A stretch of 39,555 bases of DNA from Gammaproteobacteria bacterium (GTDB lineage: Bacteria > Pseudomonadota > Gammaproteobacteria > Pseudomonadales > Azotimanducaceae). A model generated the notes under the pieces. That model had not been told where the DNA came from. It worked only from the letters and a program-made list of their open reading frames with translations, and made no database searches. How positions within the stretch are numbered: the first letter of the stretch is position 1; each line of letters opens with the position of its first letter. The DNA lies in assembly GCA_009839505.1 (NCBI GenBank), contig VXPO01000137.1, forward strand, positions 4,403 to 43,957. Direction: 5' to 3'. Of the stretch, positions 7,272 through 23,038 are shown piece after piece. A program made the position numbers and the translations under genes.

Positions 7272-7282
7272 CCAAGCGACCC

Positions 7283-8261: not shown

Positions 8262-8376
8262 TCGCTCGACCCTACGAGCCCCAACCCCAAGCGACGCATC
8301 GGGCTACGCTCTACGCGCAGCCTTGTCCAATGACGAGGTGCCCGCAGCAAGAGGCTGATTCGAAGCGAAGTGAGGC

Positions 8377-9339
8377 TCATTGCCGACGACGACCGTCTCG
8401 CGCCAACCTCGACCGTCTCGACGACAACACCTCCCCTGGCCACCGCCACCGCTGGCGGAATCTCCGTTTGTCGGGTTCACTTTCGTTCTGGAACGGACTC
8501 TCATTCGCAATGACCCCCCGGACCAGCGAGACATCGTCGAGCAGCGCCGAGACTTCACCATTTTGATTCGACTCGAAGCTCGGGTGTTTACTTGCCAAGG
8601 CAAGTTCTAGGAGTCCGAGCAACACGTGAAACCGCCGGTCTAGGTGGCGGCGAACTTCACGCCAGGCGCGATGACGGCGCAAGGCACAGTAGAACTCGAG
8701 ACGTGCCTTCGACTCGACGCCCCAGCCAGCCGGGGCATAGCCATCCACGGCGGTGGGAAGCGGAGCTCGGTTGGGACTTAGGTGATAGCCGTGTGTGGGC
8801 CGGCCCAAACCACCGGGCGGCAAGGGCAGACCACGCCTCGTAACGAGCTGGTAAAGGAGAGCCTCGTCGAGATTCAGGTCGGCATCGGCGGGAATCTCGA
8901 CCGGGTAATACGCATCACTCCGCGTGAAGTGCAACCCGCTCAGAGCCTCTCTACCGTCACGCTGGACATTGCTGTAGGGCAAGCCCGAGTCACTCATCCG
9001 AGCGATGTGTATGGGGCTGATGGCCTCCAGGATCAGGATGTCGACATCACCGATGTAGGTGAACTCGGTGTTGACCTGGGGCGTCTCGAGAAACCGGACG
9101 GTGTTCGGGGACGGTATGCCGATGCCTGCCACAATGTCTCGAAACAAGAAGCGGTCCGCTCCAAAGTGTCGATCCAAAATGTCGATTGCATCCGCGTTGT
9201 TCGACTCGAACTCCGCTGCGTCCTCAAGGCACACTTCGACGCGTGCATCGTCGTTGTGAATCAGGCTGGTCACGACGAACGGCACAACGAACATCTCGTA
9301 GAGCTTGTTCACAGAGGTGAAAATCGTAGTGCGGATCAT
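8377..9339 (-). CDS. Unidentified protein, possible GT-A-fold glycosyltransferase
   Basis: This is a 320-residue protein with no family I can name. The N-terminus (IRTTIFTSV, then a run of strands and helices) and the segment TYIGDVDILIL near residues 94-103, with D98 and D100 forming a DxD-like motif, resemble a nucleotide-sugar-binding GT-A fold. A proline/histidine-rich loop follows (GRPTHGYHLSP). The last 50 residues are strongly basic and probably disordered. It lies on the reverse strand between two glycan modules, upstream of the envelope operon, with a 200-base gap to it. Its base composition looks somewhat less GC-rich than its neighbours by eye. The start at 9339 has only a weak ribosome site. 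Glycan transfer or modification is inferred from the motif and place only. Confidence 0.6.
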   Translation of the reverse strand: MIRTTIFTSVNKLYEMFVVPFVVTSLIHNDDARVEVCLEDAAEFESNNADAIDILDRHFGADRFLFRDIVAGIGIPSPNTVRFLETPQVNTEFTYIGDVDILILEAISPIHIARMSDSGLPYSNVQRDGREALSGLHFTRSDAYYPVEIPADADLNLDEALLYQLVTRRGLPLPPGGLGRPTHGYHLSPNRAPLPTAVDGYAPAGWGVESKARLEFYCALRRHRAWREVRRHLDRRFHVLLGLLELALASKHPSFESNQNGEVSALLDDVSLVRGVIANESPFQNESEPDKRRFRQRWRWPGEVLSSRRSRLARDGRRRQ

Positions 9340-9461
9340 CGAGCCTAGTCCGTCGTTCCATGCAGCATAATACTCTCAACGCCCGGCTAGGCTGCCGATG
9401 CCCGCGACGCTGCCGACGTGGGGGAACAGGCTTGCACGACGTATTTCGGAACGGCAGCGAC

Positions 9462-9486
9462 CTAGTGTCCCGTCAACCCTCAAACG
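9462..9486 (+). repeat. Dispersed short repeat, copy B
   Basis: The sequence begins CTAGTGTCCCGTCAACCCTC. It matches copy A (2208-2230) at all but one position over the first 21 bases, and copy C (14745-14769) at most positions. It lies in the 215-base gap between the unidentified gene and the next glycosyltransferase, and ends 68 bases before that gene's ATG, nearly the same offset as copy A. Confidence 0.5.
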
Positions 9487-9554
9487 GCGCGTCGGCGGCC
9501 AGGCCGGATCTCGGTCTAGAAGCGCCGGTACGCCCGGTACATTAGGTGGCCAGC

Positions 9555-10772
9555 ATGCCCACGTTACTGGTGCTGGCTTGGGACGTCGGCCACAATCCCC
9601 TGGGTCGAGCACACCTATTGGCACAAGCCCTTGCCAGAAGCTATCGGGTCACGCTTGCGGGCTTTCAGTTCCCACGATACGGCAACGCAGTCTGGAAGCC
9701 TCTACGCGATAGCGACTTGAGAATCGCGTCGATCCCAGGCTCCGCGTTCCCCAGCTTCCAGCGCACCCTCGAGGATCTCGCCCATCGCGTCGACCCCGAC
9801 GTGGTCATTGCGTGCAAGGCACGACTACCCAGCGTCCAGGCCGGCTTGATGATCAAGGCGGTTCGCAATCGCCCGCTCATCATCGACATCGATGACTACG
9901 AACTCGCTTTCTTCGAGAACCGGGAACCGTTGGTCGACCCAGACGAAACAGATGAAAAAGCGTTGAAGGAGCCTTTCGAGGAGGCTTGGACCCGCTACAC
10001 CGAAAACCTGCTGACGGCGGCCGACCGCCTTCTGGTGTCGAACGCAGAACTCCAGCGTCGGTTCGGTGGCGTGGTCGTTCCCCATGCGCGCGACGAAACG
10101 GCATTTCGTCCCAATCAGTTCGACCGGCCCTCCGTACTCAGGCGTCTAGGCTTGAAGCCCGACCAAAAGGTCATCTTGTTCGCCGGCACGCCGCGACCAC
10201 ACAAGGGCCTGCTGCACGTTCTCGACGCCGTGAAACGGGTGCGGCGTCGCCACGATTGCCGGCTTGTCGTCGTCGGAACCCCTCCCGATCGCGCGTTCGA
10301 GGACGAACTCAGGCGTCGCGGCGGGAGGGCGTTGTCCATGATCCCCGACCAACCCTTTCAACGGCTTCCGGAGATTCTGACCGCCGCGGATCTGGTATGC
10401 GCTGTTCAAGATCCCAATTCCATGGTTTCCGAGTATCAGCTGCCGGCGAAAATCGTTGACGCCATGGCGATGGAGGTGCCAGTGATCGCCACCGACGTAC
10501 CGCCCTTGCGGAACCTGATCGAGGCTGGCGCAGTGGAACCGGTGACCCTCAACAACCTCGCCGCGCGGATAGCCTCGTGGCTAAGCGCATCCGCACAGGG
10601 ACGGTCACCCCAGGTCGAACGTGCCCGAGCCCTGTTCCAGCAACAGTACAGCTACCGGGCGATCAACCGAACCCTGGTTGGTGTCGTGGAGCGCTGCCTG
10701 TCGGCGCCCAAGCCTCTCCCCGGCCCGATCGTCGATTTCCTTGGTGCACAGGCGCGTCGATACCCGAGCTGA
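9555..10772 (+). CDS. GT4 family glycosyltransferase (GT-B fold)
   Basis: This is a 405-residue GT-B glycosyltransferase. The N-terminal half has LLVLAWDVGHNPLGRA and an IDIDDYELAFF segment. The C-terminal donor half has ILFAGTPRPHKG, VVVGTPPD and a region around SEYQLPAKIVDAMAMEVPVIATD, where GT4 enzymes bind the donor nucleotide. The first glutamate of the usual E-x7-E is less clear, with E in SEYQLPAK the likely counterpart. The ATG at 9555 is preferred over the GTG at 9546 because AGGTGG (9544-9549) is correctly spaced. It lies upstream of rmlB in the same direction, with a possible promoter between them. The sugar transferred is unknown. Confidence 0.88.
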   Translation: MPTLLVLAWDVGHNPLGRAHLLAQALARSYRVTLAGFQFPRYGNAVWKPLRDSDLRIASIPGSAFPSFQRTLEDLAHRVDPDVVIACKARLPSVQAGLMIKAVRNRPLIIDIDDYELAFFENREPLVDPDETDEKALKEPFEEAWTRYTENLLTAADRLLVSNAELQRRFGGVVVPHARDETAFRPNQFDRPSVLRRLGLKPDQKVILFAGTPRPHKGLLHVLDAVKRVRRRHDCRLVVVGTPPDRAFEDELRRRGGRALSMIPDQPFQRLPEILTAADLVCAVQDPNSMVSEYQLPAKIVDAMAMEVPVIATDVPPLRNLIEAGAVEPVTLNNLAARIASWLSASAQGRSPQVERARALFQQQYSYRAINRTLVGVVERCLSAPKPLPGPIVDFLGAQARRYPS

Positions 10773-10961: not shown

Positions 10962-12014
10962 GTGGCCAACATCCTAGTAACCGGTGGTTCCGGCTTCATC
11001 GGTACCAACTTCATCCGTTACTGGTTAGCCGAGCACCCCGCCGACCGAGTCGTCAACTACGACCTGCTCACCTATGCGGCGAACCCTGCCAACCTTGCGG
11101 ATCTAGAGTCCGGCGCGCCGGGACGCTATGCGTTCGTCCACGGCGACATCGGCGACTACGACCTCGCCCATGGAGCCCTGCGAGACCACGACATCGACAT
11201 CGTCGTGAATTTTGCGGCCGAGTCCCACAACAGCCGCGCCGTTGTCCAACCCGAAACCTTCTTCGAGACCAACGTCGTCGGCACCGTGCAGTTGATGCGC
11301 GCAGCGCTGGCGGCGGACGTTTCGCGATTTCACCACGTCTCGACCTGCGAGGTCTTCGGTGACCTGCCGTTGGACTGCGACGATGCATTCACCGAGTCGT
11401 CACCGTTGGTGCCGAGGACGCCTTACAACGCCTCCAAGGCCGGAGCGGACCTGGCCGTGAACGCATTCTTCGGCACCTACGGCTTGCCCGTGACCATCTC
11501 CAACTGCGCGAACAATTACGGGCCCTACCAGTTCCCCGAGAAACTGATACCGCACTTCGTGGTCAGCGTTCTCCAGGGCAGACCCATGACGCTCTACCGC
11601 AGCAGCCGCAACCGACGCGAGTGGCTGCACGTGGACGACCACTGCCGTGCCATCGACCTCATACTCGAGCGCGGCATCGTGGGCGAGACCTACAACGTCG
11701 GCAGCGGCGTCGAGGTCGACGTCGAGGGCATCGCCGACCGTATTCTGAGACTGCTCGACGCGGACGATTCGCTTAAGACCTACGTGCCTGACCGCCCCAG
11801 CCACGACCGTCGTTACCTGCTCGACTCGACGAAGCTTCGAGAGGAGCTTGGCTGGCTGCCTGAGGTCGACTTCGAGGCGGGATTCGAACAAACCGTGCAG
11901 TGGTACCGTAGCAACCGGGACTGGTGGCAACCCCTGCTCGCGCGCATCGAAATCGACGAGACCGCCTGGTCGGATGCGACGCATTCAGGCAGCCCGTCCG
12001 AAGTACCGGCGTAG
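10962..12014 (+). CDS. rmlB: dTDP-glucose 4,6-dehydratase (variant active-site motif)
   Basis: This is a 350-residue extended short-chain dehydrogenase/reductase. The NAD-binding GGSGFIG is at 8-14, the catalytic Y155-x3-K159 is in YNASK, and [14 protein letters not shown] and [14 protein letters not shown] are hallmarks of dTDP-glucose dehydratases. The family removes water from dTDP-glucose to give dTDP-4-keto-6-deoxyglucose, the second step to dTDP-rhamnose. The usual S-T-D-E-V-Y-G is S-T-C-E-V-F-G here, so the general-acid aspartate is replaced by C129, while E130 is kept. AESHVDR is also changed to AESHNSR. A related subgroup may exist in other bacteria. GTG at 10962 follows AAGGGAGA. 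rmlA, rmlC and rmlD lie 10 kb away on the other strand. Confidence 0.9.
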
Positions 12015-12042
12015 CGAGCGAAGAAACCCGGAAAGACTTCGA

Positions 12043-13401
12043 ATGCCTGCCCAGTCGATGGAGGATCTGGTTGCGCTCTGCAAGCGTCGGGGTTTCGTAT
12101 TCCAAGCGAGCGAAATATACGGCGGAATCCAAGGCGTCTACGACTACGGGCCCCTGGGCGTGGAGTTGAAGAACAATCTGAAGAACGCGTGGTGGCGTTC
12201 CATGGTGTACGAGCGTGACGATGTCGAGGGATTGGACTCCGCGATACTCACGAACCCTCGAGTGCTGCACTACTCCGGCCATGAGGAAACCTTCGCCGAT
12301 CCGCTCGTGGACTGCCGGCAGTGCAAGTCCCGCTGGCGCGCCGACCACCTCGACGACGGTGCATGCCCGCGTTGCGGCTCTTCGGATATCACCGAACCCC
12401 GACCATTCAATCTCATGTTCAAGACCAACTTGGGGCCCGTCGAGGACGACTCCTCGTTCGCCTACCTTCGGCCGGAGACCGCGCAGTCCGTATTCACCAA
12501 CTTCAAGAACGTCCTGGACTCCACTTCGGCGAGACTGCCTTTCGGCATCGCCCAGATCGGCAAGGCGTTCCGCAACGAAATCACTCCACGCAACTTCATC
12601 TTCAGAGTACGCGAGTTCGAGCAGATGGAGCTCGAGTTCTTCGTCGAACCCGGTACCGACGAGGACTGGCATGAACGCTGGGTGGAGGATCGACTCGACT
12701 GGTGGCGGCAGCAGGGCATCAACGGCAACAACCTCAAACTTCTGCATGTGCCCGAGGACGAACTTGCCCACTATTCGAAAGCCACGGTGGACGTGATGTA
12801 CCAGTTTCCCCACGGCCTGGAGGAACTCGAAGGAATAGCCAATCGAACGGACTTCGATCTCGGCTCGCACACCAAGAACCAACGCGACCTCGACATCGAC
12901 GCAACGGTCCTGGCGAACGACGAATCGAACGCCCGGCTAGCGGTGCAGGATCAGGCCGACCGCCGTTGGAGCGTTCCCTACGTGATCGAGCCCTCCGCCG
13001 GGGTCGATCGGGGCGTGCTTGCAGTGTTGAACGAAGCCTACCGCGTGGATCGGCTAGCCAACGGCACGGAGCGCACACTGCTGTCTCTCCCCGCGCACCT
13101 GGCACCGATCAAGGCAGCAGTGATACCCCTCAAACGCAACCACCAAGGTCTTGTCGATCGGGCACGCGGCATCAAGACCGAACTCATGAGGCTGGGTCTC
13201 GGCCGTATCGTGTTCGAGAACACCGGCAACATCGGCAAGGGCTATCGGCGGCACGACGAGGTCGGCACGCCGCTTTGCATCACCGTCGACTTCGAGACCT
13301 TGGAAGATGAGTCGGTAACCGTTCGAGACCGGGACACGATGGCCCAGGAGCGGGTCGCCACTACCAGTCTCGCCAACTACCTGCGGGAGCGCATCGCATG
13401 A
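12043..13401 (+). CDS. glyQS: Glycyl-tRNA synthetase, dimeric alpha2 type
   Basis: This is a 452-residue class II synthetase of the alpha2 (eukaryote/Gram-positive-like) type. It begins with a helix and [17 protein letters not shown]. It then has a zinc-like C-x2-C ... C-x2-C insertion (CRQC near residue 91 and CPRC), a motif-2 region [13 protein letters not shown], and motif 3 with [11 protein letters not shown]-terminal anticodon-binding domain ends in a ThrRS-like fold. It charges tRNA-Gly with glycine. The ATG at 12043 follows GGAAAG at a good distance; the ATG at 12058 is an alternative. The gene starts 28 bases after rmlB and overlaps gcvR by four bases, so all three are probably co-transcribed. 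Most gammaproteobacteria instead carry the alpha2beta2 enzyme. Confidence 0.93.
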
Positions 13402-13919
13402 CCCGTGCCGTGATCGCGACGATCGGTGAGGACCGCCCTGGTTTGGTCAACAACATCGCGGAGATCATCCACGACCTGAACCTGTCCATCGAGGACAGCC
13501 GAATGACGGTTCTCGGCGGCGAGTTTGCCGTGCTGATGTCCGTCGCCGGCGGCGATCTACCACTTAAGCGGCTTGAGACGAAGCTCGGCAAGCTCGCCGA
13601 AGCAATGGACCTCGCGTTCCTGTTCAGGCGCACTGGTGGACGCAGCAACGTGGAAGGACGCGTGCCGTACACGGTCAGCGTGACCGCGATGGATCATCCG
13701 GGAATCGTCCATCGCGTCGCCAGCTTCTTCTCCTCGCAGAACATCAACATCTACAACCTCGACACGGTCACGGAGCGCGCCGCACACACGGGGACGCCGA
13801 TCTTCTCGCTGGTGATGGAGGTGGAGGTACCGCCCGAAATCCGGATCGTCGAGCTGCGCGACAGCTTCTTCTACTTCTGCGACGATCACGACCTTGACGG
13901 CGAGTTGCGCCCAAGCTAG
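13398..13919 (+). CDS. gcvR: GcvR-like double-ACT regulator
   Basis: This is a 173-residue protein made of two ACT domains (about 1-80 and 90-165), each opening with a strand and a D-x-P-G type ligand loop (GEDRPGLV and AMDHPGIV). This matches GcvR, which in Escherichia coli binds glycine and holds the activator GcvA in check, so controlling the glycine cleavage operon. The ATGA overlap with the glycyl-tRNA synthetase gene couples the two, joining glycine use and glycine sensing in one transcript. No gcvA or gcvTHP gene is in the window. A different amino-acid-sensing role for the ACT pair cannot be excluded. Confidence 0.82.
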
Positions 13920-13990
13920 ATACCTTGAGCGGGGCGGATGTTAACGGTCTGGTTGCATTTCATGGACGGACGCTCCGAGTCGCTCCTTGA

Positions 13991-14012
13991 CGCCTCGCGT
14001 ACTCGCGAGGCG
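13991..14012. other. Perfect 9-bp hairpin downstream of gcvR
   Basis: CGCCTCGCG and CGCGAGGCG flank a four-base TACT loop. It lies 71 bases after gcvR and 59 before cysC. No T-run follows, so it is not a classical intrinsic terminator; it could act as a Rho-linked or RNA-stabilising stem. Confidence 0.5.
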
Positions 14013-14071
14013 CGCTAGTAGCTCAGATCGGGCAGTCCATCCGTCGTGTCAGCAAACCATCCACTCCGACG

Positions 14072-14677
14072 ATGACAAACTCGGACAACACCACTCGGAT
14101 CGAACACCGCATAGATACGCGGGAACGCGCAGGCAAGAACCGGCATTCGGGCGGGGTGCTCTGGTTCACTGGTCTGTCGGGTGCAGGCAAGTCGACCCTC
14201 GCGTTCGCGCTGGAAGAACGCCTGTTCCGGATGGGCTACCAAGTGTATGTGCTGGACGGTGACAATATTCGTCACGGTCTGTCGTCAGACTTGGGGTTCA
14301 CCCCCGTCGATCGCACCGAGAACATTCGTCGTGTCGGTGAGATCGCCGCCTTGTTCGCCGATGCCGGCTTCATCTGCATTGCGGCGTTCATCTCACCCTA
14401 CCGCGACGACCGAATGGCAGCGCGCCGTGCGGCAATGGGCAACTTCCACGAGGTCTTCATCCGCGCGGACTTGTCGGTGTGCGAGGGCCGGGATCCGAAG
14501 GGTCTGTACCGGAAGGCCCGTGCTGGCCTCATCGACAACTTCACGGCCATCGACGACCCATACGAAGAGCCCGAAGAGCCATCGCTGGTGGTCGACACCA
14601 GTTCGTCGACGATCGAGGAGTCCTTGGGGATCCTGGTCGCCTACGTGACCAGCGCGTTCACCGTCGACGCCCGCTAG
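14072..14677 (+). CDS. cysC: Adenylylsulfate (APS) kinase
   Basis: This is a 201-residue stand-alone APS kinase of normal length. The P-loop is GLSGAGKST (34-42), followed by DGDNIRHGL, ENIRRVGE, FISPYRDDR (the APS-binding region) and DPKGLYRKAR, all diagnostic. It phosphorylates APS to PAPS in the cytoplasm. No cysD, cysN or cysH is adjacent, and the nearest large gene encodes a sulfotransferase domain on the opposite strand. A role supplying PAPS for glycan sulfation is therefore more likely here than cysteine synthesis, although this is inferred from place. No strong ribosome site is seen before the ATG. The stop codon lies inside a 15-bp hairpin stem. Confidence 0.95.
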   Translation: MTNSDNTTRIEHRIDTRERAGKNRHSGGVLWFTGLSGAGKSTLAFALEERLFRMGYQVYVLDGDNIRHGLSSDLGFTPVDRTENIRRVGEIAALFADAGFICIAAFISPYRDDRMAARRAAMGNFHEVFIRADLSVCEGRDPKGLYRKARAGLIDNFTAIDDPYEEPEEPSLVVDTSSSTIEESLGILVAYVTSAFTVDAR

Positions 14678-14706
14678 GGAAGCTCTGATTAAGAGCTTCC
14701 CTAGCG
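14672..14706. terminator. 15-bp perfect hairpin between convergent genes
   Basis: CGCTAGGGAAGCTCT (14672-14686) pairs perfectly with AGAGCTTCCCTAGCG (14692-14706) around the loop GATTA. The 5' arm contains the cysC stop codon. It lies between convergent cysC and the giant glycosyltransferase gene, so it could stop transcription in both directions, but no clear U-tract follows on either side. Fused inverted ends of a lost insertion element are an alternative reading. Confidence 0.5.
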
Positions 14707-14744
14707 CGGCACAGGGATGTGCCGCCAAATTCGATGGCGCAAGC

Positions 14745-14769
14745 CATTGTCCCGTTAACCCGCAAACGC
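14745..14769 (+). repeat. Dispersed short repeat, copy C
   Basis: The sequence begins CATTGTCCCGTTAACCCGC and is a diverged version of copies A (2208) and B (9462), in the same orientation. It covers the last codons and the TAA stop of the giant reverse-strand gene, so the element may have supplied that gene's present end. Confidence 0.4.
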
Positions 14770-17700
14770 CTGGAAATAGCGCCACGCGTGTCGGTTGAGG
14801 GTGTGCCCGGTCTCCAAGTCGTAGGCGGCTTGAGAAGCGAGCGCGTCGCGAAGATCAATATCGTTGACGAGGCTCAGCAGACCGTCGATCCAGTCCTGCC
14901 GGGATGAGCCAACGAGCAGTGCGCTTTCGCCGTTGCGGGTTAACGCGGCATGGGAGCCACAATCGGAACCGACGGTCGCGACACCCAATGCCGACAACCA
15001 AAGAAACCGAAGGTCCGCATCGACGCTCGACTCGGTGACCGGGAGAACCGCGATATCCCATAGATTGTGCGCACGCAGCGACTCCACGAAGTCCTCGTGG
15101 CTTGACTTCGATCCCGGGAACACGCGATAGCCCAGTTCCGAATCCGACGGCAATTCGCCCACCAACGTCAGAGTCAAGGGGTGTTCCGATCGGGCGAGAA
15201 CCTCCCGCCATGCAGGTAGCACGATCTGCAACTCGTCCTCGCTGCCGATGAACAGTACCTGTGTCACGTCCGATCCGTGGCGTTCTGCGACGCTGCGCTC
15301 ACCAACCACCGAAGACTCCAGCCAAAGCGACTCGTCGAGCGCCGGCGGCACCTGCCGCACCTCGGCACCAACGTCGGCATAAGATCGAGCGAGTGACGCC
15401 GATGGCACCACCACGCGGTCGGCAGCCCGCGCCAAGGCCATCGCGTTCTCGGACCAGACATCGCCAGTGGCGCATACGAGTCTGGCTCCTGCTTTCCGGC
15501 ATGAGGCGGCGATCTCGTCGACGCCGCAATCCGCGGTGAGCACCGCATCGTGGACCACACACGCGCCGCAGTTGCCATCACGCAGTTCCGCAAGCGAGTG
15601 CACCTCGCGAACGACAACCCGCGCGCGGAGGCTCCGATGCCGGAGCGGTCTCAACACCCGCTGTTCAAGCTTGCTCTGCGCAACCGGGTCGCCGCCGCCT
15701 CGGGCGACGAGCACTGCCACCGTCACTTCGCCGGTTTCGTCCGCGGAAACGGGTTCGACCCCGCGTCGCAGCGCGATTGGATGAGGCTTGCGACCTAGAT
15801 CGGCGTGGCGCCATGCCAATCGAAACGCCGAAAGCTCGGAGAGACTCGCTCGCACAATGCTGTATCTCGATGCAGTCTCCAAGCCCTGTTGCCTGAGCTT
15901 GTCGCGCAGGGAACGATCCTTGACAAGGCGGATTACCGCATCCTCCACGGCATCGGGCACCGCCGTGTCCACCACGCACGCGTTGTCGCCATCGACCGCG
16001 TACTCGTACACGCCGCCCCGAGCCGGCAAGACCACCGCGCATCCGCAGGCCATCGCTTCAAGCCCGGTTCTGCCGAACGCTTGGTAGTCCGACAGGTCGA
16101 CGAAGATGTCGGCGCTCCGCATCAGGTCGGCCACCGCGTCTCGGGTCAAGACACCGTGGTTCTCGAGTTCGAAATCCAGCTTCAAGTCAGACTTGTGGGT
16201 CTCGATGCAATCAGAAATGTCCTGCGTCTCACACCCGAACGAGACGACTCGCGCCTCGGGTACCGACAGGGCGACACGCCGCAAGACGCGTAGAGTCCGC
16301 AATGGTGCGCGCCGGGGAGTCACCGGTCTGATCATGGCGAGGACGGTAACCGTCGCATCACGGGTGTCATGAGCGCGGTCTGGGTGGAATACTTCGTGAT
16401 CCAAGCTGGGCGAGACCCGGCAGACCTCCATTCGATGATGCTCACGTACGGTTCTACAGATCCAATCGGTCTTGGCCATGAGCAGCATGCCGGGAACGCG
16501 TGTGTAGGAGGCGAACGCAGCGGAACGTTCATCGGAATCCGGGGCGTAGAACCAGGGTTCGTAGTCCTGAACGTAGTAGGCAAAGAGCTTGTCAGGCCAT
16601 CGCGCCGCGATCGGCTGCAGTAGCTGAGGCGTCGTCCACAACGTTGCCACGACGACATCGAATGGCTCGGCCTTCTCCACCAGATCCGCCGGCGAGTCGT
16701 AGGAGACCAGGCTACCGTCGAGCAATTCGCCATAGAAGTGGCGCATGGATTCGACGGATTGCCAGTTCGTGGCCACCCGCGCGTCCACGCCCAGATCACG
16801 CATTCCCGCAGCTTCCTGTATCACCGAGTTGGCCCCGCCGCTGCCTCCGCGGACGGGAAGTACGAAGAGCACGCTCCTGGGTCCACCTCCAGCATCGGTG
16901 TCGCGTCCCGGTTCGGATACGCCCACCGTCGGGCGCCCGTCTCGGATGAAGGACGTCACTCTCGAACGGATGGCCGCCAATTCAGGGGATTTCCGAACTG
17001 CATCGGTACCTACTTCGACGAGCGCCCGACCGTACTTTCGAAACAGCGCCTCATGTCCGTCCTTGGCCAACTTGTCGCGGTTGGCACTGCCGAAACTCCT
17101 GGACTTGGCATGGTAGACGTAGCAGTGATCCGCGACGGCAAGTTCGAAACCCGCCTCGCGTGCCCGGAGGCAATAGTCGTTTTCTTCTCCGTAGCCGCGA
17201 GGAAAAGACTCCTCGTCGAGATAACCGACTTGGTCGATGACCCTCCGGTCGATCAGGAGACAAAAGCCGTTGAGAAACGCCACTCGGGGAAACCGGAACT
17301 CCGACACGCGGTGGACCAACTCACCGAACTCGTCCACGTTGTAGCCTGACGGGAGATCGTTGACGGCCCAACCGCCCTGTGCGTCGGACCGCTCTGGAAT
17401 CGATTGCCAGCTGGCGGCATTGGAGAGCGGACCCACCATGCCTACGCTCTCGTCGCTGGCCATGCACTGCAGCAGCCCTTCCAGCCATAGCCTGGGAACG
17501 ATCGTGTCGCTGTTCAGCAGGACAACCTTGCCCCTTGAGCTTGAGCGCAACCCCTGGTTGGCAGCACAGGTGTAACCGACCGGGCCGCCGGTCTCGATCA
17601 ACTGAACGACCGGCCAGCGGGCCGCGAACCGGCGCAACCAAAGGGTGGTGGCCTCACTGGAGCCGTCGTTTACGACGATCAGGCGGTAGTCGACGGTCGT

Positions 17701-19776
17701 ATTCGCGATGATGGAGTCGAGACACCGCTCGACGTGATCGAGCGCGTTGTGGACGCACACGACGACGTCGACCCCCGTACTTTCCACCGGAGGAACCTCT
17801 CGGCGTGGTCGCCACGTCTCAGTCGTCCGCGCTGTCGGCGTTTCGGCGACGGGTACGGAGACACTCGAAGGGTCTTTTGGTCGCGGCTTCGGCGGCGCCA
17901 TCGGCGGCACCGCAAGCAGCTTGTCGGGGCTGGTTCGTTGATACTGCCGGTACTTGCCGATGAGCGATCTTGCGCTGTCGGCGGCAGTTGGTGAGATACG
18001 TTTCCCCAACAACCTACGCGGCGAGGAGAGGATCAAGTCTCCCCATCGCCATCGTCGGGAACCGACCAGCGCATCGAAAGTTCCGATAAGGGCGGCGATG
18101 TACGCCCGTTCGCCGCCAATCTGGCTAGCCCGCCGCCGCAGTTCCAAGCTGTGCTCAACTAGACTCCGGGCAAGATCCGCGTGACGGTGCTTCCCCACCT
18201 GCAGGATCTTCTCCACTGCCGGAGTTTCCATCGGCAGACCACGGGTCAGATCCCGCAGTGAATCGTTCTCGGACGTGGCAAACTCGTGGAAAACGCGTGT
18301 ACTTGCGCGATGCTCCGCCGTTGCACGGGACAGCTGTTCGACTACCGTCGAGGTTTTTCTTCTCAGTGCGAGGCGTCGCATGATCGAAACGACTGCATTT
18401 CCCAACCGCCAGCGACGTGAGACAAGCAGGCTTTCGATAGCTGCCCACAGGTCTTCGGCTAGGGATTCGAGCTCGTCTAGCAGAGCCTTCCGACGCTTTA
18501 GCTCGATCGACCAACCGGATATCGTCGACTTGATCTGCTCGCGTCGTTGGGACGCTTCAAACGCGGCGTCGTTGACGGCAGTCCTAGCAGCGCGTAGCCC
18601 CTCTTCCAAGGTCGCAGAATTCAGCTCAAGCTGCGCTTTCTCCGTGACAAGCTGCGCTTTCGCAGTGACAAGCTCCGCTTTCTCGGTGAGCAGTCCCTTC
18701 CGTTCCCGATCGAGGCGGGACTGTTCACCTTCCAGCGCCGCGACCCGCTGCTGACTCAGTTCCAGGCTCGTCTTCAATTGGATCCGCTGCCGGCGCAGGC
18801 TGATGGAATCACGCTCGAGGTTTCTCACGCGGGAGGACTGTTCCCGAATCGACTCGCGGGCATGGCGAAGCTCGGCATTCCGTAGCGTCAACTGCAGCTC
18901 GAGATTCGCTGCACTCAGCTTGCTCTGTGTTTCGCTGGCCTTTTCGGCCCGTTGATCGATGTCGACCGACCGCTCGTGGCGTCCCAGCGCCGCCAAGCAT
19001 GCTTTCGAGACGGCTACTGCAGCCACGGTGTCCTCGCCATCTTCCGCGCCTCGAAGGAGCTCGTAGAGGGTGCGCTGGCTCGACGTTGCCACGGCGTTAA
19101 ATGATCGGATCGTCCTTCGCTGACGATACAAACCATCGTCTAAGAATCTCGCGAGTTCCGTTTGCGTGGGCTTGCGCAACCGGTAGTTCTCCCTTCCGTC
19201 GAGAGCCGCATGCAGCTTGTCGACCGTCCTTGCTGGATCCTGCATGAGATCTTCGTACGCCACGAAAATCCGGTCGAGGCCGGCGGAGTCATTCAGCGCG
19301 CAGCTGGTGTAGTACTCCCACAGGGCGAGTCCAGTGCGGACGGGGATGCCGTCGCGTGCCTTCAGTGAGTCAGCGACCTCCAACGGATTGCGATGGATGA
19401 GAATGCACACCGGAACATCGACCACCTCGCGCCAGACTGGGAACAAAACGCACATTCGCGGCTCCTTGATGAACCACGGACGGTGTGCGTCCAAATTGAG
19501 CACGATGTCGCCAGCCGAAGTGAAATGCGACTCCCGGGCATCCTCAGGTACGGCGTCGAAGTCAAACTTCGACACGCAATCCCAGTCACAGCCTGCCGCG
19601 AAGAGAACGGTGTCGTTGAGCGTGCGAACGTCACGTCGCTCCCAAAACCCCTTTTGGTTTTCGGCGCTGCGTCCAGTACCGATTCGCTCATCACCGAAGT
19701 ACAGTCCCATGAGATTCAGGACTCGGGCCAACGCCGAAGTACCGGACCGGTGCATCCCGAGGACGAAAACCTGCAT
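14755..19776 (-). CDS. Giant sulfotransferase / coiled-coil / multi-glycosyltransferase fusion
   Basis: This is a 1673-residue protein. Residues 1 to about 245 form a sulfotransferase domain: the PAPS 5'-phosphosulfate loop is LGMHRSGTSAL (6-16), and R129 and S137 in HRNPLEVADSL fit the 3'-phosphate site. Residues 270-440 are coiled coil, with heptad-length repeats near 362-385. Two SRRWR membrane-proximal-like motifs (453-457 and 573-577) each close a helical block. A GT2 domain spans about 668-925 (VVNDGSS at 701, NSDT at 755, GEEND near 863). A GT4/WsaF-like domain spans about 967-1345; a Q takes the first place of its E-x7-E motif (Q1232 to E1240). A further GT-B-like half occupies 1350-1673. 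It would sulfate and elongate one glycan. Neighbouring cysC can supply PAPS. No transmembrane helix is obvious. It could be a natural fusion of three or four separate genes. Confidence 0.88.
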   Translation of the reverse strand: MQVFVLGMHRSGTSALARVLNLMGLYFGDERIGTGRSAENQKGFWERRDVRTLNDTVLFAAGCDWDCVSKFDFDAVPEDARESHFTSAGDIVLNLDAHRPWFIKEPRMCVLFPVWREVVDVPVCILIHRNPLEVADSLKARDGIPVRTGLALWEYYTSCALNDSAGLDRIFVAYEDLMQDPARTVDKLHAALDGRENYRLRKPTQTELARFLDDGLYRQRRTIRSFNAVATSSQRTLYELLRGAEDGEDTVAAVAVSKACLAALGRHERSVDIDQRAEKASETQSKLSAANLELQLTLRNAELRHARESIREQSSRVRNLERDSISLRRQRIQLKTSLELSQQRVAALEGEQSRLDRERKGLLTEKAELVTAKAQLVTEKAQLELNSATLEEGLRAARTAVNDAAFEASQRREQIKSTISGWSIELKRRKALLDELESLAEDLWAAIESLLVSRRWRLGNAVVSIMRRLALRRKTSTVVEQLSRATAEHRASTRVFHEFATSENDSLRDLTRGLPMETPAVEKILQVGKHRHADLARSLVEHSLELRRRASQIGGERAYIAALIGTFDALVGSRRWRWGDLILSSPRRLLGKRISPTAADSARSLIGKYRQYQRTSPDKLLAVPPMAPPKPRPKDPSSVSVPVAETPTARTTETWRPRREVPPVESTGVDVVVCVHNALDHVERCLDSIIANTTVDYRLIVVNDGSSEATTLWLRRFAARWPVVQLIETGGPVGYTCAANQGLRSSSRGKVVLLNSDTIVPRLWLEGLLQCMASDESVGMVGPLSNAASWQSIPERSDAQGGWAVNDLPSGYNVDEFGELVHRVSEFRFPRVAFLNGFCLLIDRRVIDQVGYLDEESFPRGYGEENDYCLRAREAGFELAVADHCYVYHAKSRSFGSANRDKLAKDGHEALFRKYGRALVEVGTDAVRKSPELAAIRSRVTSFIRDGRPTVGVSEPGRDTDAGGGPRSVLFVLPVRGGSGGANSVIQEAAGMRDLGVDARVATNWQSVESMRHFYGELLDGSLVSYDSPADLVEKAEPFDVVVATLWTTPQLLQPIAARWPDKLFAYYVQDYEPWFYAPDSDERSAAFASYTRVPGMLLMAKTDWICRTVREHHRMEVCRVSPSLDHEVFHPDRAHDTRDATVTVLAMIRPVTPRRAPLRTLRVLRRVALSVPEARVVSFGCETQDISDCIETHKSDLKLDFELENHGVLTRDAVADLMRSADIFVDLSDYQAFGRTGLEAMACGCAVVLPARGGVYEYAVDGDNACVVDTAVPDAVEDAVIRLVKDRSLRDKLRQQGLETASRYSIVRASLSELSAFRLAWRHADLGRKPHPIALRRGVEPVSADETGEVTVAVLVARGGGDPVAQSKLEQRVLRPLRHRSLRARVVVREVHSLAELRDGNCGACVVHDAVLTADCGVDEIAASCRKAGARLVCATGDVWSENAMALARAADRVVVPSASLARSYADVGAEVRQVPPALDESLWLESSVVGERSVAERHGSDVTQVLFIGSEDELQIVLPAWREVLARSEHPLTLTLVGELPSDSELGYRVFPGSKSSHEDFVESLRAHNLWDIAVLPVTESSVDADLRFLWLSALGVATVGSDCGSHAALTRNGESALLVGSSRQDWIDGLLSLVNDIDLRDALASQAAYDLETGHTLNRHAWRYFQAFAG
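18628..18690 (-). repeat. Three 21-bp tandem repeats inside the coiled coil
   Basis: Three consecutive, nearly identical 21-base units encode seven-residue units such as LVTEKAQ, LVTAKAQ and LLTEKAE in the giant protein. They keep the reading frame and lengthen the coiled coil by whole heptads, as expected from recent replication slippage. Confidence 0.75.
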
Positions 19777-19840
19777 TCCGAAAAGATCTCCTGCTGCGCG
19801 GCTGGCCGATCCAGCCGACTAGCCGGGCTGGAGGCAAGTG

Positions 19841-20695
19841 ATGCCTTGGTATGGCTGCGGCGTGTGGTACGCTTCAACGGCCACGGAGCTTATCACGGAA
19901 CCACCAAGGTCCTTGGGTACCGACATCGAGATGACCCCCCCGTCAGCAGGCCAACACGCCGTCGCCCATGCCGTGCCCGAGGAGGTGTCGAGTCCCTCCA
20001 ACTCCGAGCGGTTGGCGGACTTCGACTTTCTGGATTTGGGTGCCTCCAAGGGCATGATGATCGACTTCGCCAAACGGGAGCTCGGTGGTACCCGGGGGAT
20101 GGGAATCGACATCAATGCCGCCAAGGTCGAGGTCATGCAGCAGCGCGGCTACGACTGCCTTCTGGCCGACGCGACGAGAATGGAATTTCCCTCCGACTCC
20201 GTGCGTTTCGTCACGATGTGCCACTTCCTCGAACACCTTCCCAACTACGCTGCCATAGAACGGTCCATTCAGTGCGCTGCCAGCGTCGCGACGGACTTCA
20301 TCTATATTCAAGGTCCGTATTTCGATGCGGACAGGTATCTCCATGATCGCGCTCTCAAGTATTTCTGGTCAGACTGGAGCGGGCACACATGTCACTTGAC
20401 CACCGACTTCCTCGGCGCGTTGCTCGACGGCAATGGTCTGAGCGACTACGTGATGCTGGGGCGCAAGCCCGTGGAGGACTCGTCGCACCCGAGCATTCTT
20501 CCCCTCGACGCGCCGATCGATCAGCACGAATACGATCCCGACATTCATTCTCCCAAGAGTCTCGTTGCATTCGATGCCAGTCTCTACATGGAGATCATCT
20601 GCGTCGTGGCTCTGCGGCCGCTGGAAAACTGGAACGAGATCGTAACCGCCCCGACTGACTGCCACCTCATTCGCGGGACGCTGCCGTACGGATAG
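19841..20695 (+). CDS. Class I SAM-dependent methyltransferase
   Basis: This is a 284-residue protein. Motif I of a Rossmann methyltransferase is FLDLGASKG (63-71). It is followed by an acidic end of strand 2 (GIDIN), a LLADATRMEFPSDS motif and the CHFLEHLPN post-motif, all typical of class I enzymes. A C-terminal WSDWSGHTCH segment is unusual and could hold acceptor-binding residues. It starts 64 bases from the divergent giant gene, so it probably belongs to the glycan locus and may methylate a sugar, though no acceptor can be read from sequence. GGAGG at 19829-19833 supports the ATG at 19841; a GTG at 19838 and an ATG at 19931 are alternatives. It is convergent with rmlD, 24 bases away. Confidence 0.83.
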   Translation: MPWYGCGVWYASTATELITEPPRSLGTDIEMTPPSAGQHAVAHAVPEEVSSPSNSERLADFDFLDLGASKGMMIDFAKRELGGTRGMGIDINAAKVEVMQQRGYDCLLADATRMEFPSDSVRFVTMCHFLEHLPNYAAIERSIQCAASVATDFIYIQGPYFDADRYLHDRALKYFWSDWSGHTCHLTTDFLGALLDGNGLSDYVMLGRKPVEDSSHPSILPLDAPIDQHEYDPDIHSPKSLVAFDASLYMEIICVVALRPLENWNEIVTAPTDCHLIRGTLPYG

Positions 20696-20719: not shown

Positions 20720-21601
20720 TCATCGTCGACGGCACAGACTCTCGACGTAGGCCCGCAAACACGGCTCCCATGCAGGGGGCTCCAAGTTGAAGGTCTCGGC
20801 CAGCCTTGCGGACCCGAGGCTTGAATTGCGCGGCCGCAACGCTTTGGTGGGCCATTGCGACGAGCGGATCGCATGCACTGCGGGCCGAGTGGCCAACAAG
20901 CCGGTCTCGACCCCGGTGTCGACGATGGCACGTGCGAACTGGCACCACGACAGCGACGGCTTCGTGGAGAAGTGATAGGTTCCCCAAGCGTGTTCCCGAG
21001 TAGCCCCAAACTTGGCGATCCGGCGCACGGCGGACGCGATCTCTACCGCAGGACACGGCGTTCCGATCTGATCGTCCACGACGGAAATCTCGCGTCGCTC
21101 TCCGGCGAGCCGAAGCATGGTGTCGACGAAGCTTCTTCCCGTGCTGCCGAAGACCCAGCTCACGCGCAGGATCAAGTGTCTGTCCGTGGCTGAACGCAGG
21201 GACTCCTCCCCCGCGAGCTTCGTCGCGCCGTAGACGTTCAAGGGGTTCGGAACGTCGTCCTCCACGTACGGTCCGTCCTTGGTGCCATCGAACACGTAGT
21301 CCGTGGACAGATGGACGAGGCCGATGCCACGGTCGTGACATGCCCGACCCAAACCCCCGACCGCCTCGGCGTTTACCCGGCGTGCGGTGGCCGGTTCATC
21401 CTCGGCCCGGTCCACGGCGGTGTATGCCGCGCAGTTCACCAGCATCTCGGGCGCACACTCGTCGAGCCGTAGTCCGACCTGCTCCGCGTCCGTGATGTCC
21501 AAGTCGTGCCGGTCGAATCCCACGACCTGGAAGTCGTCCTGGGCTAGGCGCAGCATCTCCGACCCGACCTGTCCGCCGGCGCCGGTGACCAGAACCTTCA
21601 C
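20720..21601 (-). CDS. rmlD: dTDP-4-dehydrorhamnose reductase
   Basis: This is a 293-residue short-chain dehydrogenase/reductase. The nucleotide loop is GAGGQVG (7-13). The DLDITD strand, NCAAYTAVDRAE, the STDYVFDG motif and the catalytic YGATK are all as in RmlD. It performs the last step, NAD(P)H reduction of dTDP-4-keto-rhamnose to dTDP-L-rhamnose. It is the final gene of the rmlA-rmlC-rmlD operon; its ATG overlaps the rmlC stop by four bases. Length and motifs are normal, so an active enzyme is expected. Confidence 0.95.
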   Translation of the reverse strand: MKVLVTGAGGQVGSEMLRLAQDDFQVVGFDRHDLDITDAEQVGLRLDECAPEMLVNCAAYTAVDRAEDEPATARRVNAEAVGGLGRACHDRGIGLVHLSTDYVFDGTKDGPYVEDDVPNPLNVYGATKLAGEESLRSATDRHLILRVSWVFGSTGRSFVDTMLRLAGERREISVVDDQIGTPCPAVEIASAVRRIAKFGATREHAWGTYHFSTKPSLSWCQFARAIVDTGVETGLLATRPAVHAIRSSQWPTKALRPRNSSLGSARLAETFNLEPPAWEPCLRAYVESLCRRR

Positions 21602-22137
21602 TTCGACAGGTACTCGTCGAGAGTGGGGTTCACACGATCAGCAGCCGACACGATCGGATCCCGAACCGGCCAGTCGATGCCGATGGCGGGATCATTCCAG
21701 AGCACGCCTCGGCTGTCGCCCGGGCGATAGTAGGCGGTGCACTTGTACTCGAAGTCGGCGACGTCGGAAAGAACGCAGAACCCGTGGGCGTAGCCTGGGG
21801 GAATGAACAATTGCCGGTGGTCCGTGTCGTCCAGGTAGACACCCACATGCTGACGAAACGTCGGCGAGGTCGGATCGATGTCCACGGCGACGTCGAACAC
21901 GCGGCCCCGGGCTATGCGTACCAGCTTGCCCTGGGGTTCGGTCTCCTGGAAGTGCAACCCGCGCAACACGCCCCGCCGGGACCGCGAGTGGTTGTCCTGC
22001 ACGAAGTCGCGGCCGAAGGCGCGGTGTGCGTCGTAGCGCTCCTTGCTGTAGGCCTCGAGAAGGAAACCGCGGTCGTCGCGATGCACGTCGGGTTGGACGA
22101 TCACCACCCCGGCAAGCGCGGTCTCCTCAATACGCAT
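21598..22137 (-). CDS. rmlC: dTDP-4-dehydrorhamnose 3,5-epimerase
   Basis: This is a 179-residue cupin epimerase. DDRGF (21-25), the base-bearing RGLHFQ (H62), GKLVR, the IPPGYAHGF loop and KCTAYY are diagnostic. It inverts C3 and C5 of dTDP-4-keto-6-deoxyglucose. The ATG at 22137 is chosen because MRIEET is the usual beginning and the alternative upstream start at 22218 lies wholly in rmlA. The gene overlaps the rmlA stop by 11 bases and the rmlD start by four, so all three are translationally coupled. Confidence 0.95.
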   Translation of the reverse strand: MRIEETALAGVVIVQPDVHRDDRGFLLEAYSKERYDAHRAFGRDFVQDNHSRSRRGVLRGLHFQETEPQGKLVRIARGRVFDVAVDIDPTSPTFRQHVGVYLDDTDHRQLFIPPGYAHGFCVLSDVADFEYKCTAYYRPGDSRGVLWNDPAIGIDWPVRDPIVSAADRVNPTLDEYLSK

Positions 22138-23038
22138 CGTTCTTGCCGTCGGCGTCCGGATTCGCCACGAGGTCGTGGAGGTAGTCGGCGTAGCCCCGCC
22201 CCTGGAGGCTGTCGGCAAGCGCCGCCAGTTCGCCGTCGGTAATCCAGCCCATGCGCCAAGCGACCTCCTCGGGGCACGCTACTTTCAGTCCCTGGCGGTG
22301 TTCGATGGTCTGCACGAACTGGCTGGCTTCGAGCAGCGACTCCGGCGTACCCGTGTCCAGCCACGCCATGCCGCGTCCAAACTGCACCACGTCCAGCATC
22401 CCGCGCCGAAGGTACACGCGGTTCAGGTCGGTGATCTCGAGCTCGCCCCGCGTCGACGGTTGGAGCGACTCGGCGATCCGTACGACCTCGTTGTCGTAGA
22501 CGTAGAGTCCGGTGACCGCCAGGTTTGACTTCGGCGTCGCGGGTTTCTCCTCGATGTCCACCGGACGGCCGTCGGCATCGTGGGTCAGCACGCCGAACCC
22601 GCGTGGATCCTTGACGGGATACGTAAACACCGTCGCGCCGCGGTTGTTGGCGATCGCCTGCTGAGTCTTCAGCGCCAGTTCGCTGCCGAAGAAGACGTTG
22701 TCGCCGAGGATCAACGTCACCGGATCGCCGCCAACGAAGTCGCGACCAATGACGAAGGCGTGGGCCAGCCCCTTGGGTTCGTCTTGGACCGCATACGACA
22801 AGGCCATTCCCCACTGTGAGCCGTCGCCGAGCAGCTCCTTGAGCCGCGGCGTGTCTTTCGGCGTGGAGATGATGAGAATCTCGCGTACCCCGCCGAGCAT
22901 GAGCGTCGTCAACGGGTAGTAGACCATCGGCTTGTCGTAGATCGGCAGCAGCTGCTTGCTGACCGCGATCGTGATCGGATGCAGGCGGAGGTTGCGCCCG
23001 CCGGCGAGGACGATTCCCTTGCTTGCCGCGAAGTTCAT
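22127..23038 (-). CDS. rmlA: Glucose-1-phosphate thymidylyltransferase (variant nucleotide loop)
   Basis: This is a 303-residue nucleotidyltransferase. It has SKQLLPIYDKPMVYYPL, the LGDNVFFG metal/sugar motif, GFGVLTHD, EEKPATPKS and the WLDTGTPESL segment typical of RmlA. It joins glucose-1-phosphate and dTTP to give dTDP-glucose, the first step of the rhamnose pathway. The usual nucleotide loop GGSGTRL is GGRNLRL here, so the inner glycine and threonine are replaced by N and L, while the arginine and the following HPIT are kept. It is the first gene of the rmlACD operon. The ATG at 23038 opens the first strand. The 49 bases before it, up to the end of the PMT-like gene, show no clear promoter. 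Confidence 0.94.
   Translation of the reverse strand: MNFAASKGIVLAGGRNLRLHPITIAVSKQLLPIYDKPMVYYPLTTLMLGGVREILIISTPKDTPRLKELLGDGSQWGMALSYAVQDEPKGLAHAFVIGRDFVGGDPVTLILGDNVFFGSELALKTQQAIANNRGATVFTYPVKDPRGFGVLTHDADGRPVDIEEKPATPKSNLAVTGLYVYDNEVVRIAESLQPSTRGELEITDLNRVYLRRGMLDVVQFGRGMAWLDTGTPESLLEASQFVQTIEHRQGLKVACPEEVAWRMGWITDGELAALADSLQGRGYADYLHDLVANPDADGKNDAY

Follow-up and report, generated by a model that had tools for sequence, protein, structure and literature searches.

A single gene in the window, the 39,555-nucleotide stretch of gammaproteobacterial DNA analysed here, encodes a protein that joins a sulfotransferase (ST) head, a coiled coil and several glycosyltransferase (GT) modules. We consider it somewhat probable that this fusion combines, in one polypeptide, a polysaccharide polymerase, a ruler of chain length and a terminator that adds sulfate. 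Observations in support of this reading are the domain order, the folds, the PAPS motifs, a coil of variable length that runs continuously in heptad register, the recurrence of the fusion and the presence of Wzm/Wzt in relatives.

Domain organisation of the fusion protein

The gene is a 1673-codon open reading frame at 14755-19776, with its ATG at 19776, zero internal stops and GC contents of 0.67/0.47/0.72 at codon positions 1/2/3. This confirmed the original prediction of one 1673-residue multidomain protein in an open frame and supplied the strand, minus, which had not been given. The N-terminus MQ(I/V)FVLGMHRSGTS is common to close orthologues. Pfam matched Sulfotransfer_3 at residues 3-193, GT2 at 669-902 and GT4 at about 1146-1298, and returned no match for residues 1340-1673. 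Together with Foldseek and the AF2/heptad analysis, these matches bore out the ST, coil, GT2 and GT4 domains that had been proposed. The gene and its parts are:

14755-19776, minus strand: whole fusion gene, 1673 aa, ST - coiled coil - linker - GT2 - GT4 - degenerate GT-B
19132-19776, minus strand: ST head, residues 1-215, with P-loop GMHRSGTS at 7-14 and R129/S137 (Pfam, invariant motifs, Foldseek)
18421-18978, minus strand: coiled coil, the putative ruler, residues 267-452 (AF2 helices, heptad hydrophobicity)
18627-18689, minus strand: 21-bp (one heptad) tandem repeat, 3 copies, within the coil (TRF)
17917-18420, minus strand: fixed-length module, its two SRRWR(L/W)G motifs spaced by 120 residues
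16942-17781, minus strand: GT2 module, residues 666-945 (Pfam, PDB sequence matches)
15772-16914, minus strand: GT4 module, residues 955-1335, with Q1232-x7-E1240 (Pfam, PDB sequence matches, alignment)
14758-15771, minus strand: third GT-B module, divergent and lacking the GT4 glutamates, residues 1336-1673 (hhalign, alignment)

Family profile, fold and PAPS-binding motifs predict that the head is a PAPS-dependent sulfotransferase. Sulfotransfer_3 scored 31.6 bits against a 27-bit cut-off (2.6e-7). When the N-terminal model was compared with the PDB by Foldseek, the best 28 rows were sulfotransferases, including at rank 19 a structure that we take to be Teg14, a sulfotransferase; 11 rows lay at E <= 0.001, and kinases began at rank 29. 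A PDB sequence search with the head gave 0 matches. The anticipated PAPS loop and R129/S137 were both located: GMHRSGTS, the 5'-phosphosulfate P-loop, is kept by all but one of the 14 genus proteins inspected, the window protein included, and R129 and S137, which form the R-x7-S 3'-phosphate motif, are invariant in the 12 ST sequences aligned. The scripted R-x7-S pattern was unmatched in G014, G007, G006 and G015 and matched wrongly in G008, whose sequence has the motif. One of two copies in genome G013 (G013a) retains the fusion with a degraded P-loop (GTHCSGAA), and the second copy is intact.

The GT2 and GT4 modules scored well above their Pfam cut-offs (Glycos_transf_2, 57.6 against 23.3 bits; Glycos_transf_1, 73.2 against 26.4 bits), and the C-terminal model matched GT4 and GT-A enzymes in Foldseek. 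The usual GT4 motif is E-x7-E. The motif predicted at 1232-1240 is present, with both residues invariant in the 6 sequences aligned, but its form is Q-x7-E. The C-terminal piece, predicted to be a further GT-B-like half, is indeed GT-B-like; it is, however, an entire divergent GT-B and not just half of one, related to the fusion's own GT4 module, to which it aligned with an hhalign probability of 92.9 (E 3.7e-7). In a sequence alignment, the third module has no glutamate at the place of the GT4 motif. A PDB sequence search with the third module returned nothing meaningful, and the homologous region of the Pseudomarimonas arenosa protein (L028) scores positive in Pfam.

In the AF2 model, the coil region forms helices at residues 258-380 and 389-471. 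Hydrophobic residues occupy 49% of a/d positions and 14% elsewhere, a bias reached by 0/500 shuffles. The heptad-length tandem repeats reported earlier are real, as the three 21-bp units found by TRF demonstrate, and tandem repeats of 21, 63 and 84 nt occur in the coils; the main coil repeat of G007 is 96 nt, which is no heptad multiple. Pairwise identity to the window protein is 49-64% for the ST, a level of conservation similar to that of GT2 (60-65%) and GT4 (57-59%), and 24-32% for the coil. Measured from a YE/HE anchor at the coil start to the motif, coil lengths of 81, 186, 242, 333, 333, 417 and 424 residues all equal 4 modulo 7, and that of G008 (323) equals 1. For 6/7 distinct lengths sharing one class, P = 4e-4, with the anchor chosen in place of the P-loop after inspection because of a 1-residue loop indel in G000 and G004; P-loop anchoring gives a shared class in only 5/8. 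The P value covers two-motif sequences; the one-motif sequences G014, G007, G013b and L028 (classes 5, 2, 1 and 5) have a different link module and were excluded for that reason. No heptad quantisation is seen in the flanking Pro-rich linker (4/8, P = 0.13), and the periodicity of the 81-residue coil of G013a is not significant (62/500 shuffles). With a rise of 0.1485 nm per residue, the series of coils, from 81 to 424 residues, spans 12 to 63 nm, and the 186 residues of the window protein about 28 nm. The fixed-length module is possibly a membrane-associating region, on a tentative membrane-helix reading of its SRRWRLG motifs; the hydrophobic moments of these motifs are unexceptional.

Recurrence of the fusion and its gene neighbourhood

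The ST-coil-GT2-GT4 architecture is present in 8/16 genus genomes including that of the window, and the entire architecture also occurs in the Pseudomarimonas arenosa assembly. The source genome of the window is in 181 contigs, a state in which separate genes might be joined by a sequencing or assembly error. We regard such a join as having a negligible probability because relatives carry the same fusion: the proposed check of whether the fused order recurs was answered by 7/15 other genus genomes, one of them with the fusion on a single 5.07-Mb contig (G013 = L025), together with P. arenosa, and the refuting result, the same parts as separate genes in relatives with a join here, was not found.

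The ST-coil head precedes many unrelated tails, namely GT2-GT4, WbsX-GT4-GT2, twin GT2, RgpF and methyltransferase-weak GT4. Beside its fusion, G008 has an ST joined to an ABC ATPase, according to Pfam, together with a free protein of 261 aa whose P-loop was judged ST-like by eye only. The genes flanking the fusion in the window are:

9546-10772, plus strand: free GT4, whose counterpart is fused behind the ST-coil in G007, G014 and G013b
10962-12014, plus strand: rmlB-like dehydratase (Pfam only: GDP_Man_Dehyd and Epimerase)
14072-14677, plus strand: stand-alone cysC (APS kinase), which makes PAPS, convergent to the fusion (Pfam, NCBIfam, conservation)
19838-20695, plus strand: methyltransferase
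20720-21601, minus strand: rmlD (TIGR01214 above cut-off)
21598-22218, minus strand: rmlC, start probably nearer residue 30 (TIGR01221 above cut-off)
22127-23038, minus strand: rmlA (TIGR01207 above cut-off)

The free GT4 is 54-64% identical to the GT4 fused in the three relatives, and this resemblance indicates that modules switch between fused and free states. In 6/7 other core loci, a homologue of the methyltransferase is found about 4 kb or less from the fusion. Stand-alone cysC was found in 15/16 genus genomes. The idea that cysC is always near holds locally, 12/16 genus genomes having it no more than about 6 kb from an ST-headed gene, but fails outside the genus, where it was found at 1/11 ST-headed loci; cysC was therefore rejected as a universal partner of ST-headed genes. 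Among individual genomes, cysC occurs in G005 with no ST match, in G009 with just a short ST fragment (residues 2-56, 51%) close to the end of a contig, and in G014 on a separate contig; it is absent from G001, an 81% complete genome.

Export genes at sulfotransferase-headed loci

Outside the genus, Wzm was found at 8/11 ST-headed loci and at 3/22 control GT loci (Fisher P = 0.0014), and was absent at 3/11. A Wzt with a carbohydrate-binding module (CBM) was detected by tblastn at four of these ST-headed loci (L106, L107, L109 and L110); ORFs were parsed in 9/11, L110 and L114 being unparsed. The gene order wzm-wzt(CBM)-ST gene occurs in L107 and L109 and in Pseudomonas L042 and L045, the L045 permease being assigned from predicted TM segments only. 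The CBM family PF14524 is present in L042 and L045 and was not found in any of the 16 genus genomes, that of the window included. In the flanks examined of the ST-headed ORFs of L033 and L037, an ABC ATPase signature was absent.

Within the genus, a Wzm protein was used as the query because PF01061 alone missed Wzm-like permeases such as that of G008. Only four genus genomes, G013, G008, G007 and G012, have a Wzm homologue inside the fusion locus. The window's genome has a Wzm/Wzt pair on a different contig from the fusion; its nearest named family is a galactan exporter, and its scores (NF050109, 2.3e-86; NF050108, 1e-84) are both under the equivalog cut-offs. A Wzx/Wzy/Wzz pathway for the fusion locus was also considered and is unsupported by the distribution of Wzx and Wzz: Wzx (PF01943) occurs in 5/16 genus genomes, with the copy of the window's genome on a different contig (C29), and Wzz occurs in 1/16, which is another genome.

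A proposed ruler with a sulfate cap

In the proposed mechanism, the C-terminal GT2 and GT4 modules would lengthen a glycan carried on a lipid at the inner membrane, with dTDP-L-rhamnose supplied by the genes next door. The PAPS-dependent sulfotransferase at the N-terminus would be kept at a fixed distance by the coiled coil. When growth has brought the non-reducing end of the chain as far as the head, that end would be sulfated and further extension blocked, and a Wzm/Wzt ABC transporter would export the finished chain. We infer, that is, that sulfate is placed on the chain end and halts growth, and that the length of the chain is dictated by that of the coil. The most likely product is a rhamnose-containing glycan, sulfate-capped when the chain spans the coil. 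The earlier suggestion that the coil is a spacer coordinating sulfation with chain growth is plausible, but it missed the link to ruler proteins.

That link comes from polymerase-terminator rulers such as Klebsiella O12 WbbB and O7 ORF6, which, in the sections of PMC11231755 cited here, combine a terminator, a coiled coil and polymerising transferases. The window protein has this ruler-type layout, with a modifying enzyme at the distal coil end and polymerising GTs at the other. Like WbbB of K. pneumoniae O12, it carries an N-terminal terminator candidate, a coiled coil and two C-terminal polymerising GT modules in one protein, and the O12 glycan is described as ABC-dependent (PMC11231755), as the glycan made here would be in the proposed mechanism. 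The terminator of WbbB is a GT99 beta-Kdo transferase, whereas the window protein has a PAPS sulfotransferase fold; a transporter CBM, which known terminated O-antigen systems use (PMC11231755), is present in O12, whereas none was found in the window's genome. ORF6 of K. pneumoniae O7 is described as a terminator, a coiled coil and two C-terminal GT2 modules using TDP-rhamnose, with one more GT encoded separately (PMC11231755); its terminator is a methyltransferase-kinase, whereas the window protein has an ST, plus a GT4 and the third GT-B module. In WbdD of E. coli O9a, too, the terminator sits at the far end of a coiled coil that serves as ruler (PMC3482155, PMC11231755), but its polymerase, WbdA, is a separate protein and its cap a methyl-phosphate. 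A sulfate cap has a counterpart in animals, where the HNK-1 sulfotransferase is reported to terminate matriglycan, sulfate on the last sugar stopping chain growth (PMC10955480), although the capping enzyme and the polymerase LARGE1 are separate there. Aeromonas salmonicida has an ABC-exported O-antigen, a WbbB-like polymerase and an ST domain adjoining Wzt, but its ST is a separate 216-aa protein (ORF19) beside WbbB, and sulfate in the O-antigen is not reported in the part of PMC4483657 cited. This case counts against a sulfate cap. The ruler-type layout is thus already known, and an ST in the terminator slot would be the new element. Our literature search, at title and abstract level, found no bacterial sulfotransferase chain terminator or ST-coil-GT fusion; an earlier mention is possible.

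An unlikely but serious alternative is that the sulfotransferase modifies many residues as the chain grows, so that the product is a sulfated polymer, and that the coil tethers this enzyme to the polymerase and measures nothing. Marine Cobetia marina (Rhap2S) offers a precedent of sulfated capsules with ABC exporters and rhamnose, as far as PMC11766843 is cited here; the extra ST-like proteins of G008 exceed the need of one cap, and a dedicated cysC suggests a sizeable PAPS demand. However, a sulfotransferase some 28 nm away on a heptad-registered coil fits the chain end better than each repeat, and the head sits in the terminator position of the coil proteins in the cited sections of PMC11231755. 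End-capping is likelier than sulfation along the chain because the modifier-coil-polymerase order matches that of known polymerase-terminator rulers. Several relatives also own a Wzt with a CBM, which argues against decoration. In known systems, this module reads the chain end.

It is improbable that the parts were fused for convenience, to channel substrates in a capsule or exopolysaccharide pathway, while chains are neither measured nor capped and coil length drifts neutrally in heptads. The shuffling of modules between fused and free genes, the fast divergence of the coil and the expectation that any coiled coil keeps register would fit such a fusion, but not the recurrence of the ST-coil head ahead of so many unrelated tails or the enrichment of ST-headed loci next to wzm. 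Still more remote is a head that is no longer an enzyme at this locus and serves only as a glycan- or partner-binding domain: G013a keeps its GT modules conserved with a degraded P-loop, but nearly all of the genus proteins examined have GMHRSGTS intact, R129 and S137 are invariant, and cysC is retained nearby.

Several observations count against a ruler with a sulfate cap, namely the degraded P-loop of G013a, a genus without the Wzt CBM, the unlinked exporter of the window's genome, ST-headed loci without an exporter, the 96-nt repeat of G007 and the 5/8 register with the P-loop anchor.

More broadly, and tentatively, since we hold it to be slightly doubtful, sulfate may terminate ABC-exported polysaccharides of bacteria, a role previously unrecognised. 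Fitted as a module to many different polymerase tails, the ST-coil head would then cap and measure these glycans, and in this lineage the ruler would be resized by whole heptads through in-frame tandem repeats, an evolvable dial for glycan length. The ruler-system caps described so far in the cited papers, as far as these are drawn on here, are methyl, methyl-phosphate and Kdo. If the ruler model is true, a sulfate cap would add to this chemistry, and long "sulfotransferase" ORFs beside wzm/wzt would be offered a role. It would predict a single terminal sulfate, which repeat-unit analysis could miss. The natural orthologues, with transferases 54-88% identical and coils of 81 to 424 residues, would provide an engineering-free test series for the ruler idea.

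The sulfotransferase fusion and its recurrence in the genus

The fusion protein is encoded by a single open frame:
14755-19776, minus strand: sulfotransferase (ST) fusion ORF of 1673 aa, with an ATG start and without an internal stop.

Pfam places Sulfotransfer_3 at residues 3-193, GT2 at 669-902 and GT4 at about 1146-1298, and its search returned no match for the last 330 residues. The AlphaFold2 model of residues 1-655 (12 sequences, mean pLDDT 72.8, pTM 0.49) predicts the ST head well, with block means of 82-96 for residues 1-30 and 51-200 and of 47 for 31-40; after the head come helices 258-380 and 389-471. The best 28 PDB rows for this model are sulfotransferases (11 rows at E <= 0.001), followed by kinases; the row at rank 19 is presumably a sulfotransferase. 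A second model, covering residues 640-1673 (mean pLDDT 76.0), resembles GT4 enzymes (MshA, HepE) and GT-A enzymes (chondroitin polymerase). The original prediction of a further GT-B-like half was right about the fold but not about its extent, as the last 338 residues form a whole divergent GT-B. By hhalign (probability 92.9, E 3.7e-7) it is akin to the GT4 of the same protein, and the GT4 glutamates are absent from it in the alignment. The GT4 motif proposed at 1232-1240 is present and takes the form Q-x7-E, both residues being invariant across six aligned sequences. The P-loop GMHRSGTS is retained in 13 of the 14 genus proteins examined, and R129/S137 are invariant across 12 ST sequences.

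The fused architecture is not an artefact. Its order recurs: ST-coil-GT2-GT4 was found in 8 of the 16 genus genomes, the window's own (G000) included (G000, G002, G003, G004, G008, G010, G011, G013). Three of these (G000, G004, G008) also have the third GT-B. The G013 fusion lies on one single 5.07-Mb contig (OY282447.1, L025). The full architecture is also present in Pseudomarimonas arenosa (L028), whose best segment is 36% identical. In G007, G014 and the second G013 copy, the ST-coil is followed by a gt4_408-type GT4, like the free GT4 of the window, and a second GT-B-like part. The ST ORF carries RgpF in G012 and a twin GT2 in G015; in both, the ST call comes from BLAST (31-33%) together with the GMHRSGTS motif, not from Pfam. 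G009 has only an ST fragment, close to a contig end, and G005 (L089) has no ST match to the fusion protein, yet a stand-alone cysC is present. In most core loci the fusion is flanked by a tRNA-synthetase-like gene, gcvR and cysC at one end and by a methyltransferase, rmlD and rmlA at the opposite end. Comparison of the loci shows a GT4 that moves between free and fused states. Further features were observed:
Window 11848-13401: protein with tRNA-synthetase class II core and anticodon-binding domain, beside gcvR and cysC; 72-83% identical in genus loci where present.
Window 9546-10772: free GT4, 54-64% identical to the GT4 fused behind the ST-coil in relatives.
Window 28466-28508: intergenic tandem repeat with an 11-bp unit in 3.9 copies.
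L079 (G013), 12098-15769 and 2904-7499, both minus strand: two ST fusions in one locus.
L088 (G001), 2065-4730, and L084 (G006), 7847-10051: apparently broken ST-coil frames; the signs are overlapping frames, and coil repeats that are out of frame and contain an N gap.

Stand-alone cysC occurs in 15/16 genus genomes, the 81%-complete genome alone being without it. Longer ORFs (666-970 aa), probably cysNC, give a second and weaker APS-kinase match and are separate from it. The supposition that cysC is always near did not hold: in 12/16 genus genomes its distance from an ST-headed gene is about 6 kb or less. The distance is 78 bp from the fusion gene in the window; cysC directly or almost directly adjoins the ST-headed gene in G002, G003, G006, G010, G011, G012 and G015, and in G004, G007, G008 and G013 the gap is 2 to 6.3 kb. 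In G014 cysC sits on another contig, and G009 also has it. Outside the genus, cysC was found in 1 of 11 ST loci. PAPS supply is thus tied to the site in the genus, but not universally.

Coil length and repeats

The coil was measured between the conserved YE/HE with which it begins and the first (S/T)RRWR-G motif. In the eight core orthologues it spans 81, 186, 242, 323, 333, 333, 417 and 424 residues, and 7/8 lengths equal 4 modulo 7, the exception being G008 (323). For at least six of seven distinct lengths to share one class, P = 4e-4, with an anchor picked after a one-residue loop indel was noticed; a P-loop anchor puts 5/8 in one class. The lengths of four further sequences, which have one motif each, belong to other modulo-7 classes. 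The segment separating the two RRWR-G motifs is exactly 120 residues in seven orthologues and 118 in G008, and the Pro-rich linker after this segment varies without heptad steps (commonest class 4/8, P = 0.13). The kept register shows a true continuous coiled coil; alone, it does not prove that the coil measures.

Among 13 genes scanned, 21-nt tandem arrays were found in the coils of G000 and G008, and a 63-nt array ranks as best or among the main rows in G004, G011, G003, G002 and G006. The second G013 copy (G013b), with an intact P-loop, has nine copies of 84 nt at 98% identity. The G007 coil carries a non-heptad 96-nt array and a weaker one of 45 nt; weaker non-heptad rows also occur in G002 and G006. 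No tandem array was detected in G010, G013a, G014 and L028. G013a, the other G013 fusion, is a natural exception, with a degraded ST P-loop and the shortest and least periodic coil (62/500 shuffles reach it); its GT2 and GT4 remain 54-63% identical to other orthologues.

Exporter context

Outside the genus, we took, among the matches listed, all 11 loci whose ST match falls within an open frame of 979 aa or more. The controls were 22 author-chosen GT loci that lacked an ST match and came from the same family/order set (8 from genomes of test loci, 14 from others; each stretch 10.5 to 20 kb long). A Wzm match was found in 8/11 ST loci versus 3/22 controls (Fisher P = 0.0014, kinship ignored), and in 0/8 same-genome controls. 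Pseudomonas L042 has the order wzm, wzt with Wzt_C, ST-coil-GT4. L045 has the same wzt and ST genes by Pfam, its permease being seen from predicted TM segments only, and L044 (by ST ORF) and L046 (by gene layout) are homologous to these loci. CBM-type Wzt is present in L106, L107, L109 and L110, and L107 and L109 have wzm, wzt and the ST gene side by side. The flanks of L033 and L037 contain no ABC ATPase signature. A heptad-patterned stretch follows the head in 9/9 parsed ORFs (of 11). Pfam detects the ST in 5/7 scanned ORFs, and tblastn in L112 and L115. The tails of these seven differ (WbsX-GT4-GT2, WbsX-GT2-GT4, twin GT2, methyltransferase-weak GT4, and RgpF in three, one with a HAD domain), so that the ST-coil head is constant and the polymerase variable.

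Within the genus, a Wzm-like permease (at least 32% identical to that of G013) lies in the fusion locus of G013, G008, G007 and G012; in G014 and G009 it sits on another contig. G002, G003, G004, G010 and G011 have a PF01061 permease above cut-off on other contigs. The Wzt_C module was found in none of the 16 genus genomes. Two arrangements were recorded:
L102 (G000:C151), 4629-5453 and 5450-6193: Wzm/Wzt pair on another contig of the window's own genome (NF050109 2.3e-86, NF050108 1e-84, below both models' equivalog cut-offs).
L073 (G008), 4296-5837, minus strand: ABC-transporter ATPase with a fused sulfotransferase at its C-terminus (Pfam ABC_tran, Sulfotransfer_3).
The L102 pair (4629-6193) is isolated and closest to NCBI's galactan exporter models; much of the genus has similar permeases, likewise on other contigs. 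The L073 ATPase-ST adjoins a KpsM-like permease, a free 261-aa protein, which by eye has an ST-like P-loop, and the big fusion.

A putative sulfotransferase terminator

In polymerase-terminator systems, as described in PMC11231755, the terminator sits at the distal end of the coiled coil and the polymerising GT modules opposite; in Klebsiella O12 and O7, terminator, coil and polymerising GTs are within one protein. The fusion protein has the same order, with the ST filling the terminator slot. A literature search of partial coverage found no description of a sulfotransferase terminator in bacteria. In animals, sulfate acts as a stop signal on matriglycan, according to PMC10955480. The GT modules probably use dTDP-L-rhamnose, since rml genes are nearby (rmlA, rmlC and rmlD above NCBIfam cut-offs, rmlB by Pfam) and a Metabacillus relative has a GT2-GT4 fusion beside rml homologues.

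A capping cycle is opposed by the missing CBM, the unlinked exporter, the further ST-like domains at the G008 locus and the ST-headed loci without a visible exporter. Aeromonas also counts against it, having a free ST beside WbbB without a known sulfate product (PMC4483657). Because Wzt in the genus has no CBM and the ST activity is predicted, we class the fusion protein as one that would work like WbbB and the O7 ORF6, not as a proven member of their group. By analogy with these proteins, a cycle of extension, sulfation and export is the most likely reading: the glycan would be extended near the membrane, its end would be sulfated on reaching the ST head, and export would follow.
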